64,000 nt of DNA, from the NCBI RefSeq assembly GCF_009363855.1, contig NZ_CP045423.1, positions 1,332,001 to 1,396,000 on the forward strand, written 5' to 3'. The DNA comes from Microvirga thermotolerans (GTDB lineage: Bacteria; Pseudomonadota; Alphaproteobacteria; Rhizobiales; Beijerinckiaceae). Of this stretch, positions 28,229 through 31,686 are shown piece after piece (position 1 is the first letter of the stretch; every line of letters begins with the position of its first letter). Made by a program: the position numbers and the translations under genes. The notes below the pieces were generated by a model. It was not told where the DNA came from. It saw only the letters and a program-made list of their open reading frames with translations, and did no database searches.

Positions 28229-29563
28229 ATGCCCCAGACCTTCGACCTGATTCTCAAGGGCGGCACCGTCGTGAACCACGACGGGCGCGCGGAGCGCGAC
28301 GTGGGCGTCCGGGACGGCACCATCGCGGCGATCGGCGACCTGTCGCGGGCCTCGGCGGGGCGGACGGTCGACTGCACGGGGCTGCACATCCTGCCCGGGG
28401 TCATCGACACCCAGGTGCATTTCCGCGAGCCGGGGCTCGACCACAAGGAGGACCTGGAATCCGGCTCCCGCGCCGCTGTGATGGGCGGCGTCACGGCCGT
28501 GTTCGAGATGCCCAACACCGACCCGCAGACCACGACGCCCGAGGCGCTGGCGGACAAGATCGCCCGCGCCCGCGGGCGGATGCACTGCGACTTCGCCTTC
28601 TGGGTCGGCGGCACGCACGAGAACGCCCGGCACGTGGCGGAGCTCGAGCGCCTTCCGGGCGCTGCCGGAATCAAGGTGTTCATGGGCTCCTCCACCGGCT
28701 CGCTCCTCGTCGAGGACGACGAGGGCATCGCCGAGATCCTGCGCCGCACCCGCCGCCGCGCCGCCTTCCATTCCGAGGACGAGGCCATGCTGCGGGCCCG
28801 TAAGGACCTGCGGGTCGAGGGCGACCCGCGCTCCCATCCCGTGTGGCGCTCGGCCGAGGTGGCGCTCGCCTGCACCCGGCGGCTGGTGCGCATCGCGCAG
28901 GAGACCGGCGCCCGGATCCACGTCCTCCACGTCACCACGGCGGAGGAGATGGCGCTCCTGAGGGACTGCAAGGACCGCGTCTCGGTGGAGGTGACGCCGC
29001 ACCATCTCACCCTCGTCGCCCCGGACGCCTACGAGCGTCTCGGAACCTATGTGCAGATGAACCCGCCCGTGCGCGACGAATTCCACCGCGCGGCCCTCTG
29101 GCAGGGCCTGGACGAGGGCATCGCCGACATCCTCGGCTCCGATCACGCGCCGCATACGCGCGAGGAGAAGGACAGGACCTATCCGAACACGCCCTCGGGC
29201 ATGACCGGCGTGCAGACCCTCGTTCCCATCATGCTCGATCACGTCAATGCGAGCCGTCTCACGCTCGAGCGCTTCGTCGACATGACCAGCGCCGGTCCCA
29301 AGCGCCTGTTCGGGATTGCCCGCAAGGGCCGCATCGCCGTGGGCTACGATGCGGATTTCACCGTGGTCGACCTCAAGCGCCGCGAGACGATCACCAACGG
29401 CTGGATCGCCTCGAAATGCGGCTGGACGCCCTATGACGGCGTCACGGTCACGGGCTGGCCCATCGGCACGGTCGTGCGCGGCAACGTGGTGATGTGGGAC
29501 GGCGACCTGGCGGCGCCGTCGCAGGGCGACGCCGTGCGCTTCGAGGAGACGCTGGGCGGGTAG
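28229..29563 (+). CDS. pyrC: Dihydroorotase (class I type)
   Basis: 444-residue amidohydrolase that cyclises carbamoyl-aspartate to dihydroorotate in pyrimidine synthesis. Metal-binding motif is DTQVHFREPGLDHKEDLESGS, followed by EMPNTDPQTT, GIKVFMGSSTG (carbamylated Lys expected), FHSEDE, VTPHHLTL and the catalytic SDHAPHTREEK. Length and DTQVHFREPG favour the long class I dihydroorotase rather than E. coli-type PyrC. No aspartate transcarbamoylase gene is adjacent. Confidence 0.92.
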   Translation: MPQTFDLILKGGTVVNHDGRAERDVGVRDGTIAAIGDLSRASAGRTVDCTGLHILPGVIDTQVHFREPGLDHKEDLESGSRAAVMGGVTAVFEMPNTDPQTTTPEALADKIARARGRMHCDFAFWVGGTHENARHVAELERLPGAAGIKVFMGSSTGSLLVEDDEGIAEILRRTRRRAAFHSEDEAMLRARKDLRVEGDPRSHPVWRSAEVALACTRRLVRIAQETGARIHVLHVTTAEEMALLRDCKDRVSVEVTPHHLTLVAPDAYERLGTYVQMNPPVRDEFHRAALWQGLDEGIADILGSDHAPHTREEKDRTYPNTPSGMTGVQTLVPIMLDHVNASRLTLERFVDMTSAGPKRLFGIARKGRIAVGYDADFTVVDLKRRETITNGWIASKCGWTPYDGVTVTGWPIGTVVRGNVVMWDGDLAAPSQGDAVRFEETLGG

Positions 29564-29644
29564 GGCCCGTCCGCGCGGCATTGCGGTTTCGGCCCCGGGC
29601 GGAGAAGGAGGAGCATCGCTGCGGCGTCACGGCGGGGCGAGCAC

Positions 29645-30463
29645 TCACGTCGTGCGGTTCGGCGGCAGGCTCACCGGCTTCAGCACCTCGCGCGCGGCTT
29701 CCGCGAAGGCGCGCATCACCTCCGGGCCGTAGGGGTTGTCGAGCACGATGGTGCGGAAGAGCTCGTCCGTGTCGTGCCGGACCATCTCCACCATGCGCTG
29801 GAGGTGATTGAACGATGCCGTCGTCAGGTCGAGGCGCGGCAGCTGCATCGCCGCCGTCACGCGGCCGAGGAGATGGGTGAGACCCTGCACGTAGGCCATC
29901 TGCCGGTCGTGCTCGTCGGCGCCGGTGCGGATCACGTCGAGGCGGAGGCGGCGGCGCAGGAAACGGGCGACGCTCAGGCTCCGTGCCGATTCCCCGGCAC
30001 AGACCGCGATGCGAAGCCCCGCGATTCCGTCGCGGCCGCTCTGCGGCCCGAAGAGGGGATGGGTGCCCACCGCATGGACCGTTGCGGGAAGCTCCTCCCG
30101 CAGGATCGCGAGAGGCTCGGTCTTCACGGAGCACACGTCGATCACGAGGGCGCCGGGGCGCAGATGCGCCGCCATCGCCCGCGCGACGGCGCGAAGGCTG
30201 CCCAGCGGCACGGCGAGGACCACGATGTCCTGCCCGGCGGCGGTGGCGAGATCCACGGCCTCGACGTCCCACCGGGCGCAGACCGCGCGAAGGTCGCGGC
30301 GGGTGTCGTGGATGCGGATGTCGAAGAACGGTCGCAGATGCGGAATGCAGAACTCGCCGAAGGCGCCGACGCCGACAAGGGCGAGGCTGCGCCGTCGCGC
30401 CGGCGGGCCGGCATGCTCGAGGGACAGGCAGGAGGGGGAGGGGACTAATGGCTGCGTGCTCAT
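29645..30463 (-). CDS. Prephenate/arogenate dehydrogenase (TyrA family)
   Basis: 272 residues. NAD(P)-binding GVGAFGEF near residue 31, the central VPLGSLRAVARAMAAHLRPGALVIDVCSVKTEP and the TyrA active-site region VHAVGTHPLFGPQSG, then a helical dimerisation domain with DEHDRQMAYVQGLTHLLGR. It would oxidatively decarboxylate prephenate or arogenate toward tyrosine. No chorismate mutase or ACT domain is fused. Upstream lies a leader peptide with Phe and Tyr codons and a terminator hairpin, so it is probably regulated by transcription attenuation, which independently supports an aromatic amino acid role. Confidence 0.88.
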   Translation of the reverse strand: MSTQPLVPSPSCLSLEHAGPPARRRSLALVGVGAFGEFCIPHLRPFFDIRIHDTRRDLRAVCARWDVEAVDLATAAGQDIVVLAVPLGSLRAVARAMAAHLRPGALVIDVCSVKTEPLAILREELPATVHAVGTHPLFGPQSGRDGIAGLRIAVCAGESARSLSVARFLRRRLRLDVIRTGADEHDRQMAYVQGLTHLLGRVTAAMQLPRLDLTTASFNHLQRMVEMVRHDTDELFRTIVLDNPYGPEVMRAFAEAAREVLKPVSLPPNRTT

Positions 30464-30507
30464 GCGGTTCTCGGAGGCTTCGTCCGCCGCAGGGCACCGC
30501 TGAAATG

Positions 30508-30528
30508 AAAACGCCGCCGAGCGGCGGC
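30508..30528 (-). terminator. Attenuator terminator in the TyrA-family leader
   Basis: On the minus strand GCCGCC-GCTC-GGCGGC is a perfect 6-bp GC stem followed by GTTTTC, 44 bases before the TyrA-family start. The 5' half of this stem can pair instead with GAGCGGCAC, just after the leader peptide stop (complement of 30555-30563), giving an antiterminator. That upstream segment can alternatively pair with CGACCCTGCC inside the leader ORF (complement of 30598-30607). Confidence 0.75.
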
Positions 30529-30563
30529 ACCATTTCGACGAAATCGATCGACCCGTGCCGCTC

Positions 30564-30614
30564 CTATGGGGAGGGCCGGTAATAGGAAAAGGCGAAGGGC
30601 AGGGTCGCGATCAT
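30564..30614 (-). CDS. Leader peptide of TyrA-family attenuator
   Basis: A 16-codon ORF encoding MIATLPFAFSYYRPSP, with a GGAAGA ribosome binding site 8 bases before ATG. It contains two Phe and two adjacent Tyr codons just upstream of a mutually exclusive hairpin set and a terminator, the layout of classical ribosome-mediated attenuators. Ribosome stalling at Tyr/Phe codons would cover the first pairing segment, allow the antiterminator and turn on the downstream dehydrogenase gene. Identified from sequence logic alone. Confidence 0.75.
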   Translation of the reverse strand: MIATLPFAFSYYRPSP

Positions 30615-30756
30615 GCGGGCGATCTTCCGCAAATCGCGCGCCGGGTCAAGCACCCTGCGCTCGGGTTTCCGCGAGGTCCGGCCCGCGGACCGGCGATGCG
30701 TTCCGGAAAGTCAGGGGCGACCGGTGAGGATAAGCATGCGGGCAGGCGCCGGGTCT

Positions 30757-31014
30757 TCAGTGCTTCAGCGCCATGGAGAAGCCGCCGCTGCGGATCTTGT
30801 CCGGCAGCCCGGCGGCGTACTCGGCCACCGCCTCCTCGCCATAGGTCGCGACGAGCTCCGCGAAGGCCGCGAAAAGGGCGGCCTGCGCCATGCAGTCGCC
30901 GTCAAGGCCGTCGAGCTCGGCCTCGGCGAAAGCTTCGGTCACGTAGCTCAGGGCGGCCTGCTTGATGGCGCTGAGTTCCGGCAGGTCGGGGAGAAGGACG
31001 TCGTTGTCGTTCAT
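30757..31014 (-). CDS. Hypothetical small acidic protein
   Basis: 85 residues, not recognised. Acidic and helical (MNDNDVLLPDLPELSAIKQAALSYVTEAFAEAE, AALFAAFAELVATYGEEAVAEYAAGLPDKIRSGGF). ATG at 31014 chosen because the longer upstream frame is unlike a protein. Transcribed toward the TyrA-family leader. The segment from 30615 to 30756 between them holds the presumed leader promoter, with TTGACC on the minus strand at 30649-30644. Confidence 0.6.
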   Translation of the reverse strand: MNDNDVLLPDLPELSAIKQAALSYVTEAFAEAELDGLDGDCMAQAALFAAFAELVATYGEEAVAEYAAGLPDKIRSGGFSMALKH

Positions 31015-31143
31015 GATCCAGGCCCCATCGCGGGGCGGCGCGTGTTCGGTTGACCCGAATGTAGTGAGCGCGCCGGCCCACCGCCACCTTCTCCTTGCGA
31101 AGAGGTTAACGCGAGAGGGCATTCACCGAAAAATGTGGATAAA

Positions 31144-31686
31144 TCACCCGCCGTACCGGCTGGAGATGGTCCGCGCGAGGGTCTCTCCCTCCCGGAGGTA
31201 GCGGTTCGAGGCCTCCTGGGCCGAGGCGGTGCAGATCCGGTAGGTCAGGGCATAGGCCTGGTAGCCCTTGTTGTAGGCGCCCGCGAGCCGCTCGCGCCGC
31301 CCGGGGGTGGTTCCCTCCGCATCGAGCAGGGCCTGCATGCGGGCCTGCCACTCGGGGCCGTCCGGCGCGGCGCAGAGCGGCCGCAGGAGGGCGAGCGAAC
31401 CCATGATCTCGGCGAGGCGCAGGAGCTCCTTCTCGTAGGGGGCGGGGGGCGGCTCCACCGGCGGCGCGGGTTCCGCCTTCTGCTCCTTCTCCTTGGGAGC
31501 GGAGGGGCGCTGGGGCTGAGGCTGCGGCTGCGCGGGCGCGCGCCGCGGCGCGGGCCGGTACTGGGGCGCGGGCACCTGCGGCTGGGGCTGCGGCGGAACG
31601 CCGAACAGGCGCTCGAAGAAGCTCTGCGCGCCCGCGGGCTCCATCGCGGCGAGGAGGATCGCTCCGGCCGCGAGGCCGCGCCTCAT
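31144..31686 (-). CDS. TIGR02301 family secreted protein
   Basis: 180 residues: signal peptide (MRRGLAAGAILLAAMEPAGAQS), a long Pro/Gln/Ala-rich linker (residues ~30-85), and a conserved helical domain (LRLAEIMGSLALLRPLCAAPDGPEWQARMQALLDAEG... YNKGYQAYALTYRICTASAQEASNRYLREGETLARTI) recognised as TIGR02301, a rhizobial family of unknown function. Its ATG overlaps the NUDIX stop by ATGA. Confidence 0.85.
   Translation of the reverse strand: MRRGLAAGAILLAAMEPAGAQSFFERLFGVPPQPQPQVPAPQYRPAPRRAPAQPQPQPQRPSAPKEKEQKAEPAPPVEPPPAPYEKELLRLAEIMGSLALLRPLCAAPDGPEWQARMQALLDAEGTTPGRRERLAGAYNKGYQAYALTYRICTASAQEASNRYLREGETLARTISSRYGG

Follow-up and report, generated by a model that had tools for sequence, protein, structure and literature searches.

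A probable tyrosine-sensing leader-peptide attenuator upstream of a short tyrA-like gene in Alphaproteobacteria

The region upstream of the short tyrA-like gene in the window (the whole 64,000-nucleotide stretch of Microvirga thermotolerans DNA that was analysed) very probably functions as a tyrosine-specific, ribosome-mediated transcription attenuator. Comparison with related loci establishes that the leader ORF, its pair of Tyr codons, the spacing of this pair, the promoter position and the helices are conserved. How would such an element operate? From the sequences, we infer a start site, a stalled ribosome, a termination event and a response to tyrosine that are connected as follows. Transcription would begin at the leader AUG or beside it, and the ribosome would load on the 5′ end and follow RNA polymerase. 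When Tyr-tRNA is short, the ribosome would wait at the tandem UAU UAC codons and leave segment 2 free; segment 2 would then pair with the emerging segment 3, no terminator would form from segment 4, and the tyrA-like gene would be transcribed. When tyrosine is ample, a ribosome at the stop codon would cover segment 2, allowing the 3:4 helix and its U-rich tail to end transcription. If no ribosome is present, segment 1 would take segment 2, and the terminator would form as well.

An attenuator in front of a stand-alone TyrA gene had been proposed in an earlier note on this DNA. That proposal is upheld by the relatives, where the leader is conserved in eight of the nine genus genomes with a close orthologue and far beyond the genus, whereas the Phe sensor and the GGAAGA ribosome binding site that formed part of it find no support.

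The features of the element are as follows, with positions counted from the first letter of the window.

30644..30649, minus strand: -35 promoter element TTGACC
30621..30626, minus strand: -10-like hexamer AAGATC
30564..30614, minus strand: leader ORF of 16 codons, MIATLPFAFSYYRPSP and a stop codon (ATG at 30614, stop 30566-30564)
30598..30607, minus strand: segment 1, CGACCCTGCC, within the ORF
30579..30584, minus strand: tandem Tyr codons TAT TAC, the putative sensor
30555..30563, minus strand: segment 2, GAGCGGCAC, immediately past the stop codon
30523..30536, minus strand: segment 3, GAAATGGTGCCGCC, partner of segment 2 (antiterminator) or segment 4 (terminator)
30502..30518, minus strand: segment 4 and U-rich tail, GGCGGCGTTTTCATTTC
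30484..30494, minus strand: segment 5, CCCTGCGGCGG, a potential partner of the terminator loop and the 3′ half of arm 3
30468..30472, minus strand: GAGAA, probably a weak Shine-Dalgarno sequence for the tyrA-like gene
29645..30463, minus strand: short TyrA-family gene, 272 aa

Gene, promoter and leader ORF

The 272-aa protein matches the NAD-binding domain of prephenate dehydrogenase (Pfam PF02153, E 1.8e-16), and its nearest PDB chain is prephenate dehydrogenase 1 (5t9f, E 6.8e-19). These two matches bear out the TyrA family in the earlier call of a stand-alone prephenate/arogenate dehydrogenase. A PDH_C match is absent from the protein in Pfam, its other Pfam match lies under the cut-off of that model, and it reaches the cut-off of none of the 17 listed NCBIfam models. 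The tyrA-like gene, which starts at 30463, is convergent with a dihydroorotase gene, and the genome has a second TyrA relative at another locus (G000:C1:3652863, 48% over 84 residues).

Relatives were drawn from 48 genus genomes, 298 family genomes, 33 further loci and a single scan across named genomes. A gene closely orthologous to the window's (E <= 2.5e-60) occurs in 9 of the 48 genus genomes. A short ORF with a Tyr-Tyr pair lies upstream of the gene at 63 of 97 orthologue loci, a set that was reduced from 99 by merging two identical pairs, takes in distant relatives from other phyla and still contains at least two genomes in duplicate (L080/L113 and L084/L105). Such an ORF appears in 5 of 1940 dinucleotide shuffles (always 300 nt long, with a search span of 650 nt at four real loci), in 1 of 97 reverse complements and in none of 22 regions upstream of other TyrA relatives, defined as weaker tblastn matches in genus genomes. 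The leader is absent from the family group g33, four MAGs, other phyla and two further loci, in which an additional 1.1 kb of upstream sequence (L137 and L138) contains none either; these absences count against the attenuator. A member of the genus, G008 (L010), keeps the promoter and the architecture while its Tyr codons read CAT TGC. This is again a point against the attenuator, and judged from its sequence the locus is a natural loss of the sensor.

Three side observations concern the surroundings of these tyrA loci. In g33 (L033, L036, L037, L040, L043, L045, L048, L106 and L125), a small lipoprotein-like ORF containing ...GCDPCGG... or ...CTACGDW... is seen by eye near the place of the leader. 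At L057-L059 and L063 (MAGs, two Geminicoccaceae), the short tyrA gene stands, by eye, directly behind an aminotransferase-like gene and has no leader. Glycine and cobalamin riboswitch matches lie near two tyrA loci (L083:663-751; L034:3621-3720).

Only two tRNAs reach the Rfam gathering score in the window, the four matches in 30400-30720 are all under threshold, and no match lies within the element in 40 related loci. On these searches of the window and the related loci, a T-box, a riboswitch or a known Rfam leader is rejected.

The promoter is defined by its distance from the leader. Of the 70 leaders, 68 carry TTGAC at a distance of 34-39 nt upstream of the ATG, and in 42 of them the distance is exactly 35 nt; mononucleotide shuffles show such a TTGAC in 0.34%. 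In the window, a 17-nt spacer separates TTGACC from the -10-like hexamer, which lies six bases before the ATG; the same spacer follows TTGAC in all eight genus tyrA leaders, and the seven other genus loci mostly read NTGATS at the -10-like position. Given TTGAC and its 17-nt spacer, the transcript is expected to start at or next to the AUG, and the leader mRNA is probably leaderless. GGAAGA, which the earlier note took for the ribosome binding site, is found in only the window copy among the eight genus tyrA leaders and is rejected as a conserved site; the sequence upstream of the ORF fits a promoter that abuts the ATG.

The leader ORF is present at 30614-30564, where the earlier note had placed it. 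The 70 leaders that were compared comprise 63 with tandem Tyr codons and seven identified through a lone Tyr in an equivalent context, and the latter, with one Tyr in place of the pair, weigh against the attenuator. The invariance of the Tyr pair within the 63 holds by construction because these leaders were selected for it. The fixed distance between the pair and the stop, exactly four codons in 62 of the 63, is not by construction, nor are the third-base changes in the Tyr codons (TAT TAC in 49, TAT TAT in 9 and TAC TAC in 5). The 70 leaders encode 59 distinct peptides, a diversity that counts in favour of the attenuator, and end most commonly in YYAPSS (25), YYAPLP (7) or YYRPRH (4); the stop codons of the whole set are TAG (43), TAA (22) and TGA (5).

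Alternative helices and the output of the element

The antiterminator of the window pairs GAGCGGCAC (30563-30555) with GTGCCGCC..., and the terminator-like hairpin reads GCCGCC-GCTC-GGCGGC-GTTTTCATTTC (30528-30502, minus strand), with GCTC as its loop. A terminator pattern scan of 29300-31200 returns three sites, all variants of this one hairpin, compared with 0.9 +/- 1.0 in shuffles. The stem extends outward (GAAATG...CATTTC; GAAACA...TTGTTTC in L009), and the U-tract is therefore short and lies partly within the stem. The tail that follows, GUUUUCAUUUC, is partly paired and its U-tract interrupted, which speaks against the attenuator. The global fold of 187 nt is likewise an adverse result, being unremarkable (z = -1.28), and the support for the element is therefore comparative.

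The 2:3 pairing and the terminator stem lie where the earlier note had put them. In the folding calculation, the RNA left free by a ribosome begins 12 nt downstream of the first base of a chosen codon. With the first Tyr codon chosen, the minimum free energy (MFE) fold in the window copy is 2:3, the antiterminator; with the stop codon chosen, it is 3:4, the terminator; and without a ribosome the MFE fold of the full leader is 1:2 plus 3:4, with segment 1 paired to the stretch past the stop. Moving the Tyr edge 3 nt upstream yields a mixed fold with five 3:4 pairs and three 2:3 pairs, which is unfavourable to the attenuator.

The same calculation extends to 79 elements (57 tyrA, 22 tyrS). With a ribosome at the stop, 3:4 forms in 79/79. 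When a ribosome is near the Tyr codons and arm 4 has yet to be transcribed, 73/79 form 2:3 (genus 8/8, Acetobacteraceae 9/10, Bosea 18/18, clade Y 16/21 and tyrS 22/22). Once everything is transcribed, 2:3 beats 3:4 at equilibrium in only 6/79. This last result counts against the attenuator, and the switch would therefore need kinetic, co-transcriptional folding.

Among the eight genus tyrA sequences, the extended 3:4 helix has 99.0% of its cells paired and two pairs changed on both sides, and 21/500 shuffles score as high. The 2:3 helix is 95.8% paired in the same sequences, with slid versions reaching at most 81.3%, and shows no compensatory change, which is held against the attenuator. In clade Y, a group of genomes from the family (n=13), 1:2 is 93.6% paired, and 3:4 is 97.8% paired with 1/500 shuffles as high. 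For the Bosea clade (18 distinct rows), 2:3 is 91.7% paired (17/500 shuffles; slid up to 75.0%), and the covariation score of 3:4 plus 5:6 is reached by 2/500 shuffles.

Does the element act on transcription, or does it act on the start of translation? In a translational or dual attenuator, stalling at the Tyr codons would shift a relay of helices (1:2, 2:3, 3:4, loop/4:5 and 5:6) and hold the anti-Shine-Dalgarno strand 5 off the start site, and ample tyrosine would let 5:6 mask the tyrA start. We regard this reading as the less probable one, and it is compatible with transcription attenuation since the two outputs are not mutually exclusive. By eye, the 3:4 hairpin of the Bosea clade and clade Y has no U-tract. 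TTTTTT does follow one copy of the clade-Y hairpin that occurs outside the clade, in G586 (L141). Bosea sequences carry a start-codon hairpin, GRCATCG..CGATGYC, in which one pair is G-C in 9, A-U in 6, G-U in 2 and other in 1; the Bosea 4:5 helix (84.3% paired) hardly varies. In clade Y, 4:5 and 5:6 are 97.1% and 84.6% paired, although neither scores above shuffles (140/500 and 195/500, respectively). Helices that cover the Shine-Dalgarno, which in clade Y are of the GACCTC..GAGGTC type, outdo shuffles at p <= 0.05 in 14/22 clade Y, 8/22 tyrS, 1/18 Bosea, 1/8 genus tyrA and 0/10 Acetobacteraceae loci, in a test that does not cover the start codon spanned by the Bosea hairpin.

Within the genus, the tyrS elements retain a loop:5 helix. 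It is 88.4% paired in the genus tyrS alignment (22 of 24 loci; L262 and L264, which have no GGAG motif, were left out), with one pair that is U-A in 11 and A-U in 10 sequences and with 0/500 shuffles as high. In the genus tyrA sequences (n=8), it is 90.9% paired (8/500 shuffles), and one loop pair is A-U in 4, G-C in 2 and U-G in 1. However, helices slid by a few columns nearly equal it in covariation score (0.110 vs 0.112 at two columns for tyrS and 0.123 vs 0.130 at three columns for tyrA), although far fewer of their cells are paired. The window's own segment 5 is mismatched at both loop positions, no sequestering helix over its Shine-Dalgarno stands out (shuffle rank 0.94), and 5:6 is only 71.4% paired in the genus tyrA sequences. 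Moreover, the computed accessibility of the Shine-Dalgarno does not rise overall in the ON state (up/down: genus 1/2 of 8, Acetobacteraceae 2/3 of 10, Bosea 0/2 of 19 and clade Y 6/5 of 24), in a test whose hairpin finder took 4:5 for 3:4 in several Bosea and clade-Y rows. We keep a translational output as a rival chiefly for the clades without a U-tract and not for the window, where transcription attenuation is preferred.

The cassette upstream of other genes

Whole-genome runs of covariance models reveal the same cassette in front of other genes. R1 was built on Bosea plus clade Y, R2 on the genus plus Acetobacteraceae and R3 on mixed loci that include three tyrA copies, the window's among them. 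In the class, R1 matches 18/385 genomes (E <= 0.01), R2 60/385 (E <= 0.01) and R3 32/385 (E <= 0.001), and R3 matches 42/149 family genomes (E <= 0.001); many R2 and R3 matches, the weaker ones especially, span the terminator only, and R3 E-values hold by construction for its training loci because R3 was built partly on the scanned genomes. Within the genus, a full-length R3 match (E <= 1.5e-16) is present in 46/48 genomes, at 47 places that divide into 8 tyrA loci and 39 others. Twenty-four of these 39 places were read and 15 were not; all 24 precede tyrS.

The tyrS leaders, such as MITGRTTFTNYFTPSP and a stop, contain YY in 9 cases and YF in 15. With a Y-F pair in 15/24 leaders, the sensor codons do not always fit a single amino acid, which again counts against a tyrosine-specific attenuator. 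The cassette lies ~110 nt before tyrS with ...NYFTPSP or ...SYYTPSP and similar sequences before the stop codon (L219, L221, L222, L248, L250, L252-L254 and L256-L271). No leader of this type precedes tyrS in the window genome itself.

Outside the genus, the range of genes widens (leader peptides are given up to the stop codon unless noted). Short tyrA with the element occurs in three further families (G586, G649 and G343), and canonical TyrA in G502 follows a leader with a GTG start, YY and a stop further on. The tyrS genes are preceded by QYYAPSP in G138 and VYFARLP in G530 (both identified by NCBIfam) and by a leader in G124 (by eye). Trp leaders precede trpS in G071 (NWRRSP), G641 (KLWWLAC), G427 (RFYWPSP) and G503 (IWWRSF, with the gene judged from its first 59 residues only); the F-Y-W leader before one of these trpS genes has mixed sensor codons, a further point against the attenuator. 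Class II DAHP synthase follows NRYFWTTLT in G108 and is seen by eye in G069, and class I DAHP synthase follows SYFWYFSY..., which continues, in G679; the Tyr-Phe-Trp leaders of the two classes are at L225, L227 and L210. GNAT acetyltransferases have WYF or VYF leaders in G506, G413, G049 and G571 (Pfam) and in G387, G599 and G676 (by eye). Small S4-like proteins are found behind AYFTSSK in G586 (S4 above cut-off), in G613 (below cut-off) and in G691 (by eye), and a leader containing NYYYWF in G522 precedes an S4-like small protein without a Pfam match.

In a set of 19 loci that were read, 14 fit the aromatic-leader picture and five have no aromatic leader, the latter at E 3.7e-5 to 6.8e-4, a range that overlaps weaker true-looking matches. 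A second set of 21 loci (20 places) also contains five without an aromatic leader, and one ambiguous case, G474, in which a single Tyr precedes a GNAT-like gene. Twenty loci of the cassette type yield no match to an Rfam family. To judge by their sequences, the sensor codons mostly suit the gene behind them. We lean towards the view that the tyrA element belongs to a hitherto undescribed superfamily of alphaproteobacterial attenuators that are leaderless and respond to aromatic amino acids. In this proposal, one cassette would precede short and canonical tyrA, tyrS, trpS, both types of DAHP synthase, GNAT and S4-like genes, its codons would be re-set for each gene (YY/YF, W/WW, Y-F-W or W-Y-F), and its output would have moved between termination and start-site masking by clade.

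Could the tyrA leader be a general aromatic sensor that reads Phe plus Tyr, as the earlier note had it? The window's own leader does contain two Phe codons, and the Y-F pairs of genus tyrS and the W-Y-F leaders before GNAT genes point in the same direction. However, the Phe codons are not kept, since 41 of the 70 tyrA leaders have no Phe and no position ahead of the Tyr pair is mainly Phe. The Tyr-Tyr part of the earlier claim is thus conserved and the Phe part is not, and we consider a combined sensor improbable. Most improbable of all is that the short ORF senses no tyrosine and is merely accompanied by an ordinary hairpin, or encodes a trans-acting peptide as reported for the leader peptide of S. 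meliloti (PMC7298713), given the fixed distance from Tyr-Tyr to the stop, the third-base changes in the Tyr codons and the presence of this leader type before aromatic-pathway and aminoacyl-tRNA synthetase genes.

Relation to known attenuators

The tyrA element resembles the E. coli trp attenuator in its tandem codons near the leader end and its overlapping 1:2, 2:3 and 3:4 pairings. In E. coli trpL, tandem Trp codons lie three codons before the stop. The tyrA element differs from the trp attenuator in that it appears to sense Tyr, is probably leaderless, precedes a stand-alone tyrA gene and has no Rfam leader match. A closer parallel to its predicted 5′ end is another alphaproteobacterial attenuator, S. 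meliloti trpL, whose rnTrpL transcript is reported to begin with the leader AUG (PMC7298713, PMC10117765), although trpL responds to tryptophan and precedes trpE(G).

Other systems share the aromatic theme. The aroR leader before aroF in C. glutamicum has Phe-Tyr-Phe codons (PMC11802643, PMC4046766) and, like the tyrA element, puts aromatic codons before an aromatic-pathway gene, but it belongs to an actinobacterium and is described in a review as answering Phe limitation, with Tyr availability having no effect (PMC11802643). The pheA and pheST attenuators of E. coli likewise link an aromatic amino acid to a biosynthetic and an aminoacyl-tRNA synthetase gene, with Phe instead of Tyr (PMC11802643). 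Tyrosine-dependent termination before tyrS is described for the T-box of Enterococcus durans, which differs in being a tRNA-mediated RNA instead of a leader peptide (PMC3315439).

Attenuation by a translating ribosome is well established for Trp, His, Leu, Thr, Ile/Val and Phe (PMC1183508), and in a comparative paper of 2005 tyrosine is associated with T-boxes, and His, Thr and Phe with attenuators (PMC1262725). Our search of the open-licence literature found no earlier report of a Tyr-specific leader-peptide attenuator, in keeping with the earlier guess that a Tyr/Phe attenuator before a stand-alone TyrA is rarely described. The wider set of leaderless aromatic attenuators, of which the tyrA element would be one branch, is seemingly undescribed as well. 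A conserved Tyr-Tyr leader would fill the tyrosine gap among ribosome-mediated attenuators and would provide tyrosine biosynthesis and tyrS with a regulator in Microvirga, Bosea and Acetobacteraceae. Sensor codons that are re-set from gene to gene would offer a natural series for studying the influence of codon choice on how sensitive attenuation is, and uncharacterised GNAT and S4-like genes would be tied to aromatic amino acid starvation by their leaders.

Two groups of these loci may be noted. The GNAT loci with W-Y-F or V-Y-F leaders are L142-L145, L168, L205 and L223, of which 4/7 are Pfam-checked. L146, L167, L172 and L202 encode stand-alone proteins of ~90 aa behind WYF, AYF or YYYWF leaders; these proteins resemble the S4/C-terminal part of TyrS, with clear Pfam support for L167 only.
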